From a virus, in IMG/VR virus record IMGVR_UViG_3300009537_000102, positions 1 through 31,683 of that record: a DNA stretch of 31,683 bases; one strand, written 5' to 3'. Below are positions 1,047-31,683 of the stretch, piece after piece. Numbering within the stretch: the stretch's first letter is position 1; each line of letters opens with the position of its first letter. Below the pieces are notes generated by a model. It was not told the origin of the DNA. It saw only the letters and a program-made list of their open reading frames with translations, and searched no databases. The translations under genes and the position numbers were made by a program.

Positions 1047-1663
1047 TGAGTATCATTGATCAGCAAATGGAATTGTATTTCGCTAACGATTTTGGGAGAG
1101 TGTCCGACGCGGTGGACAAGTGGATTGGCCGCACAATTATTATGATGCAACGATGGGGTAAGGGTAGCACTTGGGTGTCGCTTGAGGGTGGCCGCGATAA
1201 CGTGCGGCTGAGCGCACTTGGATATGTCATCGAAGCGGATGATCTTGACGTGGGCTTAAAAGCCTACGGCAAGTATATTAACCGCGAGTATGGGAATCGG
1301 GACAGGCTCATAAGCCTGGATGATGAGCGTGGTCGTGATGACGACAGACCTCTAGGTGTTACGCTAGAAGCCGTCAGCCCTTTTGGGGCTTCGCCTTCTG
1401 GCGGCCTACAGGCTTTAAGTCATTTGAATCAAGAACATTTTTTAAAAGATGAGGAAGAATATGAACTTTTTTCTTTGCTGGGTGACCTTGGCCCGAACGG
1501 GCGCAACAAAGGTCCGTCCCATACCGAAGCAGCAGACCTGCTCGGCTGGGACATGAAAAGGGTGAAGCGTGTGTACGCTAGGGTTCATGCCCGTCGCCGT
1601 TATTCTGAGGATACGGACGTGCAGTCTAGGCGCAAAGCTAACGCTGCACGGTATCGTGCTTGA
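1046..1663 (+). CDS. HTH-containing putative regulator (205 aa)
   Basis: This is the first gene after the consensus promoter. ATG 1046 was chosen because it matches the predicted transcription start; in-frame ATG 1040 and GTG 1028 lie next to or inside the promoter. The N-terminal two thirds show no recognisable domain. Near residues 158-190 the segment HTEAADLLGWDMKRVKRVYA reads as a helix-turn-helix, with a following basic tail (HARRR, then QSRRKANAARYRA). Position and HTH suggest a DNA-binding regulator, possibly acting on the repeat upstream of its own promoter. That link is inference. Confidence 0.6.
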   Translation: MSIIDQQMELYFANDFGRVSDAVDKWIGRTIIMMQRWGKGSTWVSLEGGRDNVRLSALGYVIEADDLDVGLKAYGKYINREYGNRDRLISLDDERGRDDDRPLGVTLEAVSPFGASPSGGLQALSHLNQEHFLKDEEEYELFSLLGDLGPNGRNKGPSHTEAADLLGWDMKRVKRVYARVHARRRYSEDTDVQSRRKANAARYRA

Positions 1664-1682
1664 TTCGGACAACACTACTATC

Positions 1683-2570
1683 ATGAGCGTTTGGCGACAA
1701 CTGCCGTTGGGTGACCCACCAACGCTTGATAGAGAAAATGATGTTATTGTGAGACAATCAACCATCAATGCTCTGCAACTATGTGGTCAGCGAGTGGCTT
1801 TGAGAGATCACCCAGGATACCTTAAGGCAGTATCAGAGCCACTTGCTTTCGGTACACTCGTACACCATCTCATCGCCGAAGACCTCATAACAGGCGAAAG
1901 ACAGATGGGCCTACTCTCCAACATGGGTGAGTGGGTTGACCCCATACTCCAAGAACAATACGAGTGGAGTTTAAGCCAAGTACCCAACGTAGGCGATTTC
2001 TTCGGGGAAATAGCTGTCGCCTACAGGTCGTGGGTGACACGAGTGCTACCCATCATCACTAAACTGGGAGAACCAGTATCTATCGAAGAGGAAATGGTAT
2101 TATATCTTGGGGAGGGAGAAAAAGGTAAAAAAATTTTTCTGCAAGGAACTGCTGACGCAGTATACCCCTCCACTCTCGTTGATTGGAAAACGTCAGGACG
2201 GAAGTGGAAGGACAGTAAGGCACAGTTCAGTCCGCAAGCCACACTCTACCCACCTCTCGTTAAACAGCAGACGGGGTTAGACATTCGCAAGTTTACTTTT
2301 TGGGTTTTCGATAGGAGCGCCAGCCAGTGGACGAAGCACGTCACTGACCGTCGCATCAAAGACATTGACGCAGGCTTACGCATCGCCTACACTTATGGTT
2401 TACAGCTAGAGGCAGGCCACCTACCTGCGACACCATTGGACGAAAACTATTTTGATTACAAACGTGCCTGGTATTGTAGCCCCAAGTTCTGCGGAGCGTG
2501 GAACGTGTGCGACTACAAATATTTGGCCGATCACATAAGCGAAAATCAAATCGCTGAAAGGAAATGGTAA
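1683..2570 (+). CDS. PD-(D/E)XK nuclease, RecB/Cas4-like
   Basis: A 295-residue RecB-family exonuclease-like protein. Family motifs in order: GTLVHH (His 60/61), GTAD (Asp157), VDWKTS (Asp166, Lys168) and QATLY (Gln184, Tyr188). One Cys near the N-terminus (C34) and three near the C-terminus (C265, C270, C276, spaced x4 and x5) match the iron-sulfur cluster layout of Cas4/AddB-type nucleases. The likely job is end processing of DNA in phage recombination or replication, next to the helicase. No CRISPR genes are nearby, so a Cas4 role in adaptation is not implied. The start is uncertain: ATG 1683 has no clear SD, and GTG 1656 is an alternative. Confidence 0.8.
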   Translation: MSVWRQLPLGDPPTLDRENDVIVRQSTINALQLCGQRVALRDHPGYLKAVSEPLAFGTLVHHLIAEDLITGERQMGLLSNMGEWVDPILQEQYEWSLSQVPNVGDFFGEIAVAYRSWVTRVLPIITKLGEPVSIEEEMVLYLGEGEKGKKIFLQGTADAVYPSTLVDWKTSGRKWKDSKAQFSPQATLYPPLVKQQTGLDIRKFTFWVFDRSASQWTKHVTDRRIKDIDAGLRIAYTYGLQLEAGHLPATPLDENYFDYKRAWYCSPKFCGAWNVCDYKYLADHISENQIAERKW

Positions 2571-2571
2571 A

Positions 2572-2994
2572 GTGAGTAGAAATAAAAGTATACTCTTGCA
2601 AGTAGCATTCAAAGAGGCAGCCGCGAACGACGCTGCAACAACTGTTGCAGACGTTGAGGCGTTGACCTTGAAATATTATGAGACACTCATCTCCCTACAC
2701 AACTCTCTAGGCATCAGCCTAGAGGACACCAGCCGTGGAGGTCGTGACGTCCGAGGCGGTGCCCCTTCTCGTGGCCCCACTGGTGCCAGCCTAGAAGGTC
2801 AACCGTTTGAGTTGGATGGTGTGCAGTGGCGTGACTTTCGTGCCGCTAAAATAGAGGGCAGAGTCAACCCCAAGCACCCCGACTTCAAGAATAGTGGTGG
2901 CGAAAGTGTCTGGATGTACGACAAGACGGGTAGCGACAACCCGACAGCGATACCGCTAGTGGCAGCCGCTGACCTTGTTGCTGCAATGGCATAA
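2572..2994 (+). CDS. Hypothetical early protein (140 aa)
   Basis: GTG 2572 follows GAAAGGAAATGGTAAA and sits one base after the nuclease stop. The N-terminal 50 residues look helical; a Gly/Arg-rich linker (SRGGRDVRGGAPSRG) follows; the C-terminal part has Trp/Phe-rich strands (VQWRDFRAAKIEGRV, GESVWMYDKTG). The flexible linker and its place between nuclease and helicase would suit a ssDNA-binding or accessory replication protein, but no family was recognised. The GAGGACACC repeat also occurs inside the gene, encoding E-D-T. The stop overlaps the next start as TAATG. Confidence 0.6.
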   Translation: MSRNKSILLQVAFKEAAANDAATTVADVEALTLKYYETLISLHNSLGISLEDTSRGGRDVRGGAPSRGPTGASLEGQPFELDGVQWRDFRAAKIEGRVNPKHPDFKNSGGESVWMYDKTGSDNPTAIPLVAAADLVAAMA

Positions 2995-3302
2995 TGTTCA
3001 CCTTCAAAGACAAGGCGAACGCTATGCGAGTCGAGTTCGATGGGCGTCATCCGAAAGCTCGGATGACGCTCATGGCCTACTTCGCAGAAGCAGGTGTCGT
3101 GCCCGACCCCGACAATATGACCTCATATTTAGACATGATGCACCAACTCAACGATTACGTGTACGAGGGCGCTGACGAGTTCTTCACAGAAATCAGTCAG
3201 CTAGACGAGGATGAGGACGAAGGGGAACAACTATCACTTGACAGTGTACAACCCAAAGTGGACACCAACTTCGACGATGGTTTAGGAGGGGCGTACCTAT
3301 AA
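2994..3302 (+). CDS. Hypothetical protein with acidic C-terminus (102 aa)
   Basis: ATG 2994 overlaps the upstream TAA as TAATG. The first 65 residues look folded (MFTFKDKANAMRVEF, then helices); the last 35 are strongly acidic (QLDEDEDEGEQLSLD). Such tails are seen in SSB-like and replication accessory proteins that recruit partners, but homology cannot be claimed. The last codons contain AGGAGG, which would be the SD of the helicase; the TAA stop overlaps an ATA in the helicase frame. Confidence 0.6.
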   Translation: MFTFKDKANAMRVEFDGRHPKARMTLMAYFAEAGVVPDPDNMTSYLDMMHQLNDYVYEGADEFFTEISQLDEDEDEGEQLSLDSVQPKVDTNFDDGLGGAYL

Positions 3303-4207
3303 GCACCGACCTATACTATGATGTCAAACATTTATTTCAGTTCGCCGAGAACCCCACCAAAAGAGTGGGGACAGGCATGCGAGAAATAGATAGACTCATT
3401 AGAGGGCCAGCGCCAGGAGAAATCTGTATGATAATGGGACGAAGCTACTCAGGTAAGAGCATCATCGGCCAGAACATCATCTACTCCAACGCTGAACTAC
3501 CCTCCATCTTCTTCTCAATGGAGATGCCAGCCATGCAGGCAGTCATCAGACTCTACTCCATGTGGTCAGACACCCCCAGCGGTGACGTACAAATGATGGT
3601 AGAGAACGGCAACCCACCTGCAGACATGTGGGAGATGGTCGAAGCGTTCCCCCAACACGTCATAGTAGACAAGCCAGGACTCTCCATACCTGAGATGAGC
3701 GAAGAACTTTACAAGTTTGAAGGACAGTATGGTGTGCGCCCCGAGTTCGTAGTCGTAGACTACCTTGAACTCTTGGGCGGGGCCAAGGCTAGTGGCGAAG
3801 GCTACCTTGCAACAGAAATGCAGTCCACCATGCTTAAAGACTGGGCCAAAATAGAAAACATGCGTGTGTTCGTACTCCACCAAACTAACAGGCAGGAACG
3901 ACAGTGGATGCCACCCACTGAGGACAGCGCCAGGAACGCAGGCTTCACCGAAGCCGACTTTGTGATAGGATTGTGGCGACCGCACAAAGACCCAAGCCTA
4001 GACTTCCTAGAACAAATGCACAAAAAAAATATTTTTGCAGCAAACGTGCTGAAAAACCGTCCCTTCTTTCACGAAAAAGATTTAATTAACCTACGCATCA
4101 CACCATCATTAAGAGTTTGGAGAGAAGATGACACGCACAGTGACCAGGGAGGGACTGAACCAACTGTTCAAAGCAGCCCAACAGGACATACCCCTGACCC
4201 TTACTAA
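3299..4207 (+). CDS. DnaB-like replicative helicase, RecA-fold domain
   Basis: An ATP-dependent 5'-3' helicase core of the DnaB C-terminal type; the usual N-terminal DnaB domain is missing. Numbering from GTG 3365: Walker A GRSYSGKS (25-32), Walker B FVVVDYLELL (Asp132), sensor segment VLHQTNRQ (His172), and the conserved RVGTGMREIDRL entry motif. Because that motif and about 20 plausible residues (YYDVKHLFQFAENPTKR) lie at or before GTG 3365, translation must begin upstream. No ATG, GTG or TTG exists in frame there. AGGAGG at 3284-3289 is followed after 9 nt by ATA 3299, which overlaps the upstream TAA as ATAA. ATA 3299 is the proposed start. If wrong, the gene is 3365-4207. Confidence 0.8.
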   Translation: MSTDLYYDVKHLFQFAENPTKRVGTGMREIDRLIRGPAPGEICMIMGRSYSGKSIIGQNIIYSNAELPSIFFSMEMPAMQAVIRLYSMWSDTPSGDVQMMVENGNPPADMWEMVEAFPQHVIVDKPGLSIPEMSEELYKFEGQYGVRPEFVVVDYLELLGGAKASGEGYLATEMQSTMLKDWAKIENMRVFVLHQTNRQERQWMPPTEDSARNAGFTEADFVIGLWRPHKDPSLDFLEQMHKKNIFAANVLKNRPFFHEKDLINLRITPSLRVWREDDTHSDQGGTEPTVQSSPTGHTPDPY

Positions 4208-4518: not shown

Positions 4519-4730
4519 CCTTCTCAGCTACTATGACTATACAGATAACACTAGCCAAAGGTATCAGCGCAACCTTACAGCATGCGCGGACAGTATTAGG
4601 AGAATTAGAGGGAGACTGGTTTTATGAGCAAGGACTCTTAAAGGATGTACAAGCCAACGTTGACGACTACATTGCGAAACTGAAACATGAATCATTCCAA
4701 ACACAACGAAGAAACGATAGTAACGAGTGA
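4515..4730 (+). CDS. Small helical hypothetical protein (71 aa)
   Basis: GTG 4515 overlaps the upstream stop as GTGA; ATG 4533 (MTIQITLAKG) is the alternative start. The product looks mainly helical (ARTVLGELEGDWFYEQGLL, then VQANVDDYIAKLKHES). It overlaps the DUF5664 gene by 44 nt. No family was recognised. Confidence 0.5.
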   Translation: MTFSATMTIQITLAKGISATLQHARTVLGELEGDWFYEQGLLKDVQANVDDYIAKLKHESFQTQRRNDSNE

Positions 4731-5106
4731 CACTGGTGGACAGAAAGGCAGCAAACCCATACAACTACACGCTATCCCTTGGGAAGCGCTCCAAGAGGTG
4801 GGTCGCGTCTATCATTACGGGACCATCAAGTACGACGACTACAATTTCCGTAAAGGATACAAGTGGTCGCTCACGTTTGATGCGATGCAACGACATTTAT
4901 GGGCGTTCTGGTCGGGTGAAGACCGCGATGCTGAAAGTGGGTTCTACCATCTTGCTCATGCCGTATGGCATGGCTTTACACTCTTATTCTATTCCATTAC
5001 ACGAAAGGGAACCGATGACCGTCCTATTAGACTTAGAGAAAACGTTCACACGGAGCAACGGAACGACATTCTCGAAGATATACGAAAGGCTTACGAAAGC
5101 CAGTAG
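4687..5106 (+). CDS. DUF5664 dATP/dGTP diphosphohydrolase-like protein
   Basis: A 139-residue protein matching the phage DUF5664 family. Characteristic stretches: GGQKGSKPIQLHAIPWEALQ, VYHYGTIKYDDYNFRKGY, RHLWAFWSGEDRDAESGF and HLAHAVWHGFTLLFY. Family members are annotated as dATP/dGTP diphosphohydrolases with an all-helical MazG-type fold; the acidic GEDRDAESG segment and following His residues would be the metal site. The likely role is tuning the purine deoxynucleotide pool during infection, consistent with a second nucleotide-type enzyme (DUF4406) at 6501. ATG 4687 starts inside the previous gene. Confidence 0.75.
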   Translation: MNHSKHNEETIVTSDTGGQKGSKPIQLHAIPWEALQEVGRVYHYGTIKYDDYNFRKGYKWSLTFDAMQRHLWAFWSGEDRDAESGFYHLAHAVWHGFTLLFYSITRKGTDDRPIRLRENVHTEQRNDILEDIRKAYESQ

Positions 5107-5227
5107 ACGTGCCGAGCCACCCATGTTGGGGGCTATTTATGGTCACGACGACGTGCAAATTTTTTACCGCAAGGGTGTATACGACGCACTGGCTGCAGTG
5201 CGTGAGGAAATAGCTAAGACAGTATGA
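5015..5227 (+). CDS. Small hypothetical protein (70 aa)
   Basis: ATG 5015 has a good SD (AAAGGGA with 4 nt spacing) and starts 92 nt before the DUF5664 stop in a different frame; the open frame continues upstream but has no comparable start signal. The product begins MTVLLDLEKTFTRSNGTTFS and ends AALAAVREEIAKTV-like, mixed alpha/beta in appearance. Its stop overlaps the next ATG as ATGA, which supports it as a real gene. No function recognised. Confidence 0.5.
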   Translation: MTVLLDLEKTFTRSNGTTFSKIYERLTKASRRAEPPMLGAIYGHDDVQIFYRKGVYDALAAVREEIAKTV

Positions 5228-5739: not shown

Positions 5740-5884
5740 CAGGTTTCTGGTCGTCCTAGACGCCATAGAATCGCTTAGAATCGATTTGCTAATCGATGAA
5801 GGGTTCCCTGACGTGGACGAAGCCATGCTACAGGTCGCAGAAGACCTCATGTGGGTGTATCGTGAACTAGTAGAACATGAGTAG
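5717..5884 (+). CDS. Small helical acidic protein (55 aa)
   Basis: Two adjacent ATGs (5717, 5720) lie inside the end of the previous gene. The product begins MMNRKTLNRFLVVLDAIESL and is predicted to be helical and acidic. It ends by overlapping the next start by 8 nt (ATGAGTAG), which keeps the tight packing of the block. No family recognised. Confidence 0.5.
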   Translation: MMNRKTLNRFLVVLDAIESLRIDLLIDEGFPDVDEAMLQVAEDLMWVYRELVEHE

Positions 5885-6200
5885 ACCAAGGTGGGAGATA
5901 CTCGTAGGGTCAGCAGCCAAACTAGATTACCTCATGCAAGACCCTCACACTGATGAGCCACCCCACCCGCTGCAAGAGGTAGTCGAAGACGTGATAGCCT
6001 CTTGTACAGAGAGGGAACGTGAAGTGTTCCTTCTCCGCTACGGAGATGAATACTCTATCCGTCAGATCGCAGAAGTGCTAGGCTATAACAGCCACCAAGT
6101 CGTACAAGTCATACTCGACAACATTAAAGAGAAAGTTAGGAGGGCAATAGAAGATGGAAGAACCACTACTCATGGCGATGCTGACAGTGTTAGCGAATGA
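5877..6200 (+). CDS. Sigma-70 region 4-like HTH protein (107 aa)
   Basis: Residues about 42-92 read as sigma-70 family region 4: TEREREVFLLRYGDEYSIRQ then IAEVLGYNSHQVVQVI, with the typical T-x-R-E-R-E-V-x-x-L-R entry and HTH. There is no region 2, so it cannot open a promoter alone. It may act as an anti-sigma/sigma-appropriation factor or a DNA-binding regulator. It could be involved in the switch from the plus-strand to the minus-strand block; that is inference. ATG 5877 lies 8 nt inside the previous gene. Confidence 0.65.
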   Translation: MSRPRWEILVGSAAKLDYLMQDPHTDEPPHPLQEVVEDVIASCTEREREVFLLRYGDEYSIRQIAEVLGYNSHQVVQVILDNIKEKVRRAIEDGRTTTHGDADSVSE

Positions 6201-6433: not shown

Positions 6434-6504
6434 TATGGTGGATAGTGTTCGTGATGTGGCTGGTCCTAGCAGCGTTCGCCCTCTGGCACATTGGCAGAAA
6501 ATGA
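6430..6504 (+). CDS. Single-pass membrane microprotein (24 aa)
   Basis: ATG 6430 overlaps the upstream stop as ATGA. The 24 residues form one hydrophobic helix (MIWWIVFVMWLVLAAFALW) with a short basic end (HIGRK). Its stop overlaps the DUF4406 start, again as ATGA. It resembles in size and form the membrane microprotein at 832, but shared ancestry cannot be shown. Confidence 0.5.
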   Translation: MIWWIVFVMWLVLAAFALWHIGRK

Positions 6505-6911
6505 TGAGTAAAATTTTTACGCCCTTCTACCAACCATTCACAGGCACACGCCGCGTATACATTAGCGGCCCCATGAGCGGACACAAAAACAACAACTTCG
6601 ACGCCTTCGATGACGCAGCCAAAACGTTACGACGTAGAGGGTTCAGCGTATGTTCACCCTCAGACACAGACAGGTGGCTAGGCGAACTGTCTCACGCAGA
6701 GTACCTGCGGTTCGACTTCGCCAGAGTCCTTGAAGCCGACCTGCTCATCGCCCTAGAAGGGTGGGAGCAGAGCGTCGGCGCACTAGCAGAAATATTTGTT
6801 GCCCTACGCATAGGCACAGAAGTGTACGAGTGGAAAGGTGAACGGCTACGCTGGCAGATACACTTGTCAGAAGTAGAAGAAGCAATAGGGGCGCTCAATG
6901 CCAAAGAATAA
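6501..6911 (+). CDS. DUF4406 / nucleoside deoxyribosyltransferase-like protein
   Basis: The start is taken at ATG 6501 (or 6504), which overlaps the upstream stop; the in-frame ATG 6435 would run through the microprotein gene. The family signature RRVYISGPMSG (17-27), Asn/Phe in NNNFDAFDDAAKTLRRRGF and CSPSD follow the DUF4406 pattern, related to nucleoside 2-deoxyribosyltransferases. Later acidic positions (DFARVLEADLLIALEGWEQS, GALAEI) fit the family's active-site half. A role in nucleotide or base metabolism is likely; the substrate is unknown. 136 residues, a usual family length. Confidence 0.75.
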   Translation: MMSKIFTPFYQPFTGTRRVYISGPMSGHKNNNFDAFDDAAKTLRRRGFSVCSPSDTDRWLGELSHAEYLRFDFARVLEADLLIALEGWEQSVGALAEIFVALRIGTEVYEWKGERLRWQIHLSEVEEAIGALNAKE

Positions 6912-7466: not shown

Positions 7467-7578
7467 TAACAAACCAAAGCAAAGCCTTGGTTCATGGTGG
7501 TGCCCTGAGTGCGACCACTTGCTAACCATAGGACACAGTTGGTACTGTGAGAACTGTGGCGCTCATGGCACTTTCTAA
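7456..7578 (+). CDS. Zinc-ribbon microprotein (40 aa)
   Basis: ATG 7456 starts inside the previous gene and the frame ends at TAA 7576-7578. The 40 residues contain CPEC (16-19) and CENC (32-35) with 12 residues between, an almost minimal zinc ribbon (WWCPECDHLL, SWYCENCGAHG). Overlap with genes on both sides follows the pattern of the block. Could bind nucleic acid or a host protein; no specific role known. Confidence 0.55.
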   Translation: MALSNKPKQSLGSWWCPECDHLLTIGHSWYCENCGAHGTF

Positions 7579-7918
7579 ACGTGAAAGGAAACGACGTGCA
7601 AGAAGAAGCTCCCACAATTACCATCTACGACAGAACTATGGGATTACAATTGATGAGTATGATAGCATCCTTGCTTCCCAGTCTGGGCGATGCGCAATAT
7701 GTAAAGGTGGGACTTCCAAGAGACACTTCGCAGTTGACCATAACCATAAAACTGGGCAAGTTCGCGGGCTACTCTGCGCACGATGCAATACTGGACTGGC
7801 TAGGTTTATGGACTCCCGACGTAACGTGGGACGAGCATACAAGTACCTTGGATATGACGGAGCCAGGGTCAATGAGACGCTTGGAAGAGAAGTAAAAGTA
7901 CCAGAGTCAAATGAATAA
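7565..7918 (+). CDS. Recombination endonuclease VII (HNH)
   Basis: A 117-residue protein of the T4 endonuclease VII family, which resolves branched DNA and helps packaging. Conserved layout: YGITIDEYDSIL (25-36), zinc Cys pairs C43-x2-C46 and C71-x2-C74, and catalytic DHNH (58-61) followed by TGQVRGLLCARCN. A basic N-terminus (SKRERKRRARR) probably contacts DNA. ATG 7565 was chosen over GTG 7547; it overlaps the zinc-ribbon gene by 14 nt. Last gene of the plus-strand block. Confidence 0.85.
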   Translation: MALSKRERKRRARRSSHNYHLRQNYGITIDEYDSILASQSGRCAICKGGTSKRHFAVDHNHKTGQVRGLLCARCNTGLARFMDSRRNVGRAYKYLGYDGARVNETLGREVKVPESNE

Positions 7919-29934: not shown

Positions 29935-30181
29935 CTATCTCATGCCTCATTTCTCTCACTTCGCTTTGCAAATCCTCCATTTGTTGAAGAACCATACCGA
30001 ACGTTTCCTGCATCTTATAGAACACATTGTTCAGATTCGCAGTCGCATTAGCCAGACGAACCAGACGTTTTTCCAGATCACCCAACTGGTCGTTCACCCA
30101 TTCCTCACGTTCATGCCACGCATTAAAATTTGCATCCAACATGTCAGTCGTATATTTTCTTGTTTTACTCGGTGTTGCCAT
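29918..30181 (-). CDS. Coiled-coil protein (87 aa)
   Basis: ATG 30181 overlaps the upstream stop. Almost the whole product is helical with heptad-like spacing (WVNDQLGDLEKRLVRLANAT, then ETFGMVLQQMEDLQSEVREM). It is probably a small oligomeric virion or assembly protein working with the beta-rich proteins on either side. Confidence 0.6.
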   Translation of the reverse strand: MATPSKTRKYTTDMLDANFNAWHEREEWVNDQLGDLEKRLVRLANATANLNNVFYKMQETFGMVLQQMEDLQSEVREMRHEIDGDIG

Positions 30182-31683
30182 TACTCATCATCCACTAGGA
30201 TCACAGTCTGCGAGAAGCCTGTGCTTTCAATAGTACCCGTTAATATTGCTGTTTTATAAAGGGGAGTGGCCGTGGAGTATCTCGCTCTCCCACGAACATC
30301 CTGGTCGGAAGTGTACACATATGCCGTATTATCGGCAATCCCGCTTGCATTTGTAAGCTCATCAATAATCACATAGGTTGCATTCGGTGACCCAGTGGCA
30401 GGCGACGACGTACCCGAATCCACAGTATACTCATAAGCGTTAGTCGTCTGATTAGCTACTGTCCCAATAATATTATAACCATCCTCATTACAGCCCCTAA
30501 TCTTCACCTTATCACCATTAACCATACCATGCGCCGTATGCGTCACAGTAGCCGTCCCACCAGTCTGCGTGATGGACACTGTGTCCTCGGCTGCGCCAGG
30601 ACCAGTACCAGCAGGATCACATTCTAAGAACACTCGCGCATTCTGCCTGGCCGTCAGGTCGGGCTGCAACACTTCCACAATAGCACTCTTAGTGTTCTGC
30701 ACAATGGTCGTCGCACCCGAACCGTTCCTCACAGAAGGAGTGTCACCGCCGCTAATACTAATCGTAACCAAACCACCAGTATCATTCAAAATGGCTGCAG
30801 CAGCCGAACCCGACGCAGCCACAAGGTTAGACCCTGGTGTCCCACTATACCCAGTAAAATCAATGTTCGTGAAAGTAGCGTCACCCGTCACCTCAATTGC
30901 ATGCCCAGCACCCTCCTGAATGAATTCAACATCGTGCAGGTCAGTGGTCGTCCCGAAAGTCGGGTCGTCCAAGGTCGCCACGTTAGTCAATGAAGTAGTG
31001 CGAATAGTCGTCCCATTATCAATATCGGCAGACGACTGGGTTAGTTCTTGACATGAAATGTCAGCACCAGTAATGGAAAACGCGCTGGTCAAAACGATGC
31101 GGTTAAAGTTTTTGATCTTGCCAGTCAGGTCGCCAGACCCCGACGTGCCAGTAACCGTAAAATCTGCACGAGTATCTTCAGTGCCATCAGCACCCTCACT
31201 AATCAGATCAGAGTTGATGTCTACGACTGTGGACGCATTCCCCAAGTCAATAAGCAAACCAAACGAACCGTCAGAATGGTAGCCGTCAGGCCACGTCACA
31301 ACTTCCCCGTCAGAAGTAAAAGTAGTCGCCTGTGCAGTAGACCCGTCAGTACCAATCTCCCAGATACCACGAGCCACAATAATCGAACCATTATAGTTCG
31401 CATAACCCCACCTGTTAGAAGTATTCCCCTCATCAGTATCAGCAACATCAGCAAACGTCGCATCAGGGGAACTGCCATGAATGGCGATACCAGAACCCAC
31501 GTCAATGGAGTCGAGAGCAAGGTTCTCATTTTTAGCTAAACCGTTAATGAGTTCAGTCTGTGCGCCGAACCAGTCAACAGCAGTCAACGAAGGGGAACCC
31601 ACAGTGTTCTCCCGCCACCCCGCAATTTCGGGGTCAATAGCAACAATCAAGTAACCACCACGAGCAGGATAAACGTTAAACAC
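30181..31683 (-). CDS. Beta-rich virion protein, 5' partial (at least 500 aa)
   Basis: The open frame runs off the right edge; 500 codons are visible. Many short strands with Thr, Asp, Gly and Asn (VDINSDLISEGADGTEDTRA, NIDFTGYSGTPGSNLVAASG) suggest a right-handed beta-helix. An Ig-like or small beta domain follows (SITQTGGTATVTHTAHGMVN). The C-terminal part (ARYSTATPLYKTAILTGTIE) is beta too. Likely a tail spike, collar or head fibre protein in an operon with the next two small structural genes. It is unusual that it lies upstream of the portal. Confidence 0.65.
   Translation of the reverse strand: MFNVYPARGGYLIVAIDPEIAGWRENTVGSPSLTAVDWFGAQTELINGLAKNENLALDSIDVGSGIAIHGSSPDATFADVADTDEGNTSNRWGYANYNGSIIVARGIWEIGTDGSTAQATTFTSDGEVVTWPDGYHSDGSFGLLIDLGNASTVVDINSDLISEGADGTEDTRADFTVTGTSGSGDLTGKIKNFNRIVLTSAFSITGADISCQELTQSSADIDNGTTIRTTSLTNVATLDDPTFGTTTDLHDVEFIQEGAGHAIEVTGDATFTNIDFTGYSGTPGSNLVAASGSAAAAILNDTGGLVTISISGGDTPSVRNGSGATTIVQNTKSAIVEVLQPDLTARQNARVFLECDPAGTGPGAAEDTVSITQTGGTATVTHTAHGMVNGDKVKIRGCNEDGYNIIGTVANQTTNAYEYTVDSGTSSPATGSPNATYVIIDELTNASGIADNTAYVYTSDQDVRGRARYSTATPLYKTAILTGTIESTGFSQTVILVDDE

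Follow-up and report, generated by a model that had tools for sequence, protein, structure and literature searches.

Where does translation of a phage helicase gene begin when no canonical start codon lies in frame at its junction with the gene before it? The question is raised by the replication block on the + strand of a record of 31,683 bases from an uncultured phage (the window, that is, the whole stretch of DNA that was analysed). The best explanation, to which we give a probability of about two in three, is that the helicase starts at AUA 3299 by re-initiation backed by a strong Shine-Dalgarno sequence.

The helicase gene and the codons available for its start

The product of the gene matched Pfam DnaB_C at 73.7 bits (cut-off 27), this match beginning near the residue encoded by GTG 3365, and PHROG 19 with an E value of 3e-30. 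The helicase motifs were intact and comprised GRSYSGKS and VVVDYLE, which we take to be Walker A and Walker B, with HQTNR and KNR alongside. A structural model of the protein (pLDDT 85.1 overall, 73 and 70 in the first two blocks of ten residues) matched the fold of E. coli DnaB (9oa1_D) with a Z score of 28.1 and an rmsd of 3.2 over 267 residues, and its residue 1 aligned with E. coli DnaB 176-178 onward, ahead of the ATPase core. The N-terminal domain of full-length DnaB was absent: 22 residues precede the core when counted from ATA, and similarly few do so in the related loci L012, L007, L008 and L009. The protein was filed as a DnaB C-terminal-domain-type helicase and not as a full-length DnaB. 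Coordinates of the gene, of its neighbours and of the elements at the junction are presented in Table 1; the 102-aa upstream gene had no Pfam or PHROG match.

Table 1. Features of the replication block around the start of the helicase gene.
Feature	Position	Strand	Basis or remark
PD-(D/E)XK exonuclease	1569-2570	+	ORF
140-aa gene	2572-2994	+	
Upstream gene, 102 aa, C-terminal part acidic, ends -GAYL	2994-3302	+	ORF; stop TAA 3300-3302 overlaps putative helicase start
AGGAGG, strong Shine-Dalgarno (within UAGGAGGG)	3284-3289	+	Sequence; 9 nt before ATA; -10.7 kcal/mol to 16S tail
ATA, proposed helicase start codon	3299-3301	+	Overlaps TAA 3300-3302 as ATAA; putative use as start
DnaB-type helicase gene, 302 codons and stop from ATA	3299-4207	+	Pfam DnaB_C, PHROG 19, motifs, model
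Predicted N-terminal helix, codons 5-17, corresponding to the linker helix that precedes the DnaB ATPase core	3311-3349	+	Model, structure alignment, conservation
GTG, first canonical in-frame codon	3365-3367	+	Val of conserved RVGTG motif; start there unlikely

Other genes of the window were recorded in passing. Two are related to nucleotide metabolism, one at 4687-5106 with a match to PF18909 (dATP/dGTP diphosphohydrolase N-terminal family) and one at 6435-6911 which is nucleoside 2-deoxyribosyltransferase-like (PHROG 355, DUF4406). A 107-aa gene at 5877-6200 matched sigma-70 region 4 (PF08281, PF04545) and is possibly a small phage transcription factor, a gene of the recombination endonuclease VII family (PF02945) lies at 7547-7918, and an open frame of 500 aa at 30181-31683, which runs off the right end, matched nothing in Pfam or PHROG at E 0.01.

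The open stretch of the helicase frame extends from 3242 to 4207. Scanning of it agreed with the statement in an earlier note on this DNA that no ATG, GTG or TTG stands in frame before GTG 3365, and CTG was absent from 3242-3364 as well. A run of 41 codons without a canonical codon is not rare in itself, longer gaps being found in other, mostly non-coding, open frames. When codons one base from ATG were counted together with the canonical ones, the helicase frame between 3242 and 3367 contained only AGG 3284, AGG 3287, ATA 3299 and GTG 3365, and ATA 3299 was the sole near-cognate codon at a usable distance from AGGAGG. The spacing of 9 nt between AGGAGG and ATA given in the same note was found to be correct, as was the overlap of ATA with the upstream TAA as ATAA, a junction set beside those of the type GTGA (4515) and ATGA (5224) in the same block, where TAATG (2992) also occurs. 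Just past the junction, ATGATG opens an out-of-frame reading frame of 23 codons (3318-3389, found by eye), which could divert re-initiating ribosomes from the helicase frame.

Four other accounts of the junction were tried and set aside. An altered genetic code was rejected, TGA ending eight of the 30 listed genes, and a phage tRNA for AUA was rejected when no tRNA was found in the window. An indel artefact was rejected on two observations, namely that there is no canonical codon in any frame in 3280-3317 and that homology in the helicase frame is already present from about 3311, whereas the ATG at 3318 is out of frame and comes later. A hairpin in the RNA across the junction had a predicted energy of -17.4 kcal/mol, a stability equalled by 12 of 200 shuffles, the z values in relatives were -0.89 and +0.39, and no such structure is claimed.

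Of 9,046 sampled positions, 0.75% are preceded by a match to the 16S tail as good as or better than the -10.7 kcal/mol found ahead of ATA 3299. Among 33 listed positions of the window, which include GTG 3365 and two placed one base off, four had a stronger site and one an equal site. ATA was counted 4-10 nt after AGGAGG in 92 sequences (253 sites) and was seen 24 times against 23.2 expected, compared with 74 against 31.8 for ATG, so AUA starts do not appear to be common in these phages; GTG (27 against 27.8) and TTG (19 against 38.6) were not enriched either, which makes the test for ATA a weak one.

Relatives and the conservation of the junction

An alignment-based scan of IMG/VR returned 387 helicase relatives, of which 80 were kept; a single-protein scan of IMG/VR with the helicase returned no relative. 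A scan with the portal gave one relative and a scan with the capsid gave two short contigs, in which the helicase was not found, and scans with two other alignments added no closer helicase relative. The genome_contigs set contained 13 helicase matches only, at 25-29% identity, and the phage collection contained 260 matching records, those listed all being at 25-29%; the best-covered one (L003) carries a bacterial-type DnaB. Two close relatives were obtained, L012 (47,922 bases) and L007 (45,738 bases), with helicase identities of 62% and 60%, respectively. Both also encode the window portal at 61-62% identity, and the order exonuclease, gene of ~140 aa, gene of ~100 aa, helicase is common to L012, L007 and the window.

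Two other loci differed in gene structure. The helicase gene of L013 (2333-4279) has a long in-frame insert between SAKGSGY and ADVIIG, which is intein-like by its ends (by eye) and gave a LAGLIDADG_3 match of 21.1 bits, just below the Pfam cut-off of 22.5. In a more distant relative, G001 (L004 1077-1426), the helicase follows three tRNA genes (Trp, Tyr, Met), which replace the small upstream gene.

Homologues of the 102-aa gene precede the helicase in L012 and L007 with identities of 26 and 33% and ends -GQYM and -GYYL, similar to that of the window gene, and the three junctions were therefore taken as the same site. The window junction, CTATAAGC, has ATA overlapping TAA; that of L012, ATGTAGTGACG, has a GTG which shares the G of TAG (TAGTG); and that of L007, CTGTAAATGAGT, has an ATG which immediately follows TAA (TAAATG). 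From the shared FA in front of the core back to their first residue, the helicases have 16 (window), 15 (L012) and 18 (L007) residues, so ATA 3299 stands at the expected place. The AUA codon itself is not conserved, the two close relatives having a canonical codon at the same junction, although these GTG and ATG starts are predictions too. The strength of the Shine-Dalgarno match varied oppositely, at -5.7 kcal/mol in L012 and -2.5 kcal/mol in L007: the weak codon is paired with the strong site and the relatives show the reverse, in a set of three junctions that is too small for a significance test.

A survey anchored on the RVGTG motif was made with 94 loci, of which 91 had a helicase match. 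A canonical codon was present in frame before the anchor in all 91, and at least 8 codons before it in 90, the remaining one (L070) being cut by a contig end. The 91 include duplicate contigs and one bacterial-type DnaB record, and many distant loci have a longer N-terminus, for which reason the canonical codon is trivial there and the argument is carried by the two close relatives.

The canonical codons in the relatives also bear on whether the A at 3301 is real. A base error or an artefact of the assembly consensus at this position would conceal an ATGA junction with an ordinary AUG start; one substitution restores it with the right spacing, and ATGA is used at 5224. However, nothing else suggests poor sequence, all 302 codons and the motifs of the gene being otherwise intact, and a consensus error falling on a particular start codon is a less frequent event than the rare bacterial starts, which are of the order of 0.1-0.3%. 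We consider such an error unlikely. No other copy of the exact junction, with either A or G at 3301, was present in viral_contigs, a set which may omit near-identical records.

The same lack of conservation would be expected if the codon were a private G-to-A variant, neutral or harmful and without a regulatory role, which reduces helicase synthesis, or all but stops it, in a single phage or in some of its population. Such changes arise spontaneously, as in laboratory cultivation of E. coli, where an ATG-to-ATA change in rpoS was reported to give up to 5-fold less protein (PMC12864459); that report also cites, from another study, an ATA efficiency of up to 1%. The intact frame and motifs of the window helicase argue against a private variant, and so does the unusually strong Shine-Dalgarno, as expected of a working start, which makes this reading improbable.

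We also weighed whether the internal AGGAGG stimulates a minus-one shift of ribosomes finishing the upstream gene, so that this gene and the helicase would be made as a fusion. The helicase frame is indeed minus one relative to the upstream gene, and in E. coli dnaX a minus-one shift is stimulated by an internal Shine-Dalgarno. But no X XXY YYZ slippery run was seen by eye at GGA GGG GCG TAC CTA TAA, the frame relation is not conserved (L007 has the same frame with a stop between, L012 another offset), and there is a separate start in both relatives, so that a frameshift is scarcely credible.

The earlier note had held that coding homology extends upstream of GTG 3365, and this was borne out. 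In-frame homology with a coding signature begins about 5 codons after ATA (about 3311), the nearest relative aligns with the window helicase from residue 1, and PHROG 19 matches from residue 9 onward, with ATA as residue 1. Over residues 5-22 (3311-3364), 12 of 18 residues were identical to L012, with 6, 1 and 12 differences at codon positions 1, 2 and 3, and 6 of 18 were identical to L007, with 12, 7 and 9 differences; none of 20,000 shuffles of the window segment scored as well against either relative. For residues 5-16 alone the corresponding counts were 0 of 20,000 (L012) and 31 of 20,000 (L007). When a profile of the three helicases was compared with solved DnaB sequences, eight of 13 hits matched from profile positions 5-9 on. 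Such conservation is a record of the past and would still be visible had the start codon been lost recently.

These data bear most directly on a true start at GTG 3365, with the conserved codons before it no longer translated. GTG 3365 is the first canonical in-frame codon and the choice of a standard gene finder, and the DnaB_C match begins about there. Its Shine-Dalgarno is poor, however, the best match to the 16S tail being -3.0 kcal/mol and ending 14 nt upstream. The codon encodes the Val of RVGTG; L012 has GTG there too despite a start farther upstream, and L007 has GTA. All 15 aligned helicases begin earlier, and a start at GTG 3365 would lose the predicted linker helix, a helix which at the same place in T7 gp4 is reported to be required for oligomer and activity (PMC7231222). 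Initiation at GTG 3365 therefore has little to recommend it.

Proposed mechanism and its standing

The ATAA junction appears to be the right site for the helicase start. The start at ATA 3299 proposed earlier is favoured because the relatives appear to start at the same junction, the Shine-Dalgarno is strong, the N-terminal codons are conserved and no other near-cognate codon is available. We propose that ribosomes terminating the 102-aa upstream gene at UAA 3300-3302 would be held by AGGAGG 3284-3289 and would re-initiate one base back at the overlapping AUA, which would be decoded by the ordinary initiator tRNA so that the protein would carry Met at its N-terminus; initiation at AUA by free 30S subunits may occur as well. 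A single transition at 3301 in an ATGA-type junction most likely gave rise to the AUA on the lineage of the window phage; its sole effect on the upstream gene would be a stop changed from TGA to TAA, and the strong Shine-Dalgarno would make the weak codon tolerable at a reduced rate. We infer the use of AUA, the coupling, the reduced rate and the direction of the codon change alike. Translational coupling of the upstream gene and the helicase is plausible, given that stop and start are in contact at each of the three junctions.

A built-in low rate of helicase synthesis, which the earlier note had suggested, is possible for the window phage. As a conserved trait it was not supported, the two close relatives having GTG and ATG, and a base error at 3301, or a private variant, would be an equally simple account of the codon. 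It is quite unlikely that AUA is a selected throttle, in which an IF3-sensitive start with a compensating strong Shine-Dalgarno would let the phage meter replication by its choice of start codon and would tie helicase output to the small upstream protein (perhaps a loader) and to the level of host initiation factor. We judge that the window helicase probably uses AUA; the rival readings are a base error, a private variant and a late GTG start. If AUA is used, gene finders restricted to the usual codons would shorten this replication enzyme by 22 residues, placing its start at GTG 3365, and would overlook comparable genes elsewhere among phages. The three related phages would then also form a natural test set, since one junction carries ATA, GTG or ATG and the strength of its Shine-Dalgarno runs the other way.

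Comparison with known systems

Among the papers listed in a literature search there was no phage gene with an ATA start, which does not imply that none is in print. In Listeria, rare or flexible starts are reported for less than 0.3% of core genes, and L. monocytogenes rsbW variants with ATA in the rsbV overlap are translated at a lowered but detectable level (PMC13068326). Like the change proposed here, these are single-base changes of an overlapping operon start to ATA; they differ in being selected in a bacterium, in having a 17-bp overlap and in having been measured by reporter and blot. Streptomyces sigR (PMC5472188) has a non-canonical start in a translationally coupled pair, as the earlier note proposed for the helicase, but its codon is GTC, it is the first gene of its pair and IF3 repression has been shown there.

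The stop-start contact has a counterpart in phage operons with ATGA/GTGA overlaps, SPP1 genes 1 and 2 (PMC6316719) among them, where a start overlapping the upstream stop is thought to couple translation. These use AUG, and SPP1 gene 2 is without a ribosome site, unlike the window helicase with its strong site. In an M13-based two-gene reporter in E. coli, re-initiation rose more than 3-fold when a Shine-Dalgarno was added 9 nt ahead of the second start, and fell with extra IF3 (PMC2268962).

The nearest precedents for the codon are infC, ccpN and citZ of S. aureus, which are reported to have AUA starts (PMC13009471). In reporters, AUA reached about 10% of the AUG level in poor medium and, for ccpN, up to 30% in rich medium, extended Shine-Dalgarno motifs were predicted for infC and ccpN, and the citZ AUA is confined to one S. 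aureus lineage, a case of use without conservation (PMC13009471). The window helicase shares with these genes the AUA start, putative in its case, and the lowered rate expected from it, and with infC and ccpN the extended Shine-Dalgarno. The S. aureus genes are chromosomal and supported by ribosome profiling and reporters, and ccpN is conserved from S. aureus to B. subtilis, whereas the helicase is a phage gene with a stop-start overlap and a codon that is not conserved. A phage replication gene that putatively starts at AUA behind a strong Shine-Dalgarno is unusual, but it is not unprecedented.
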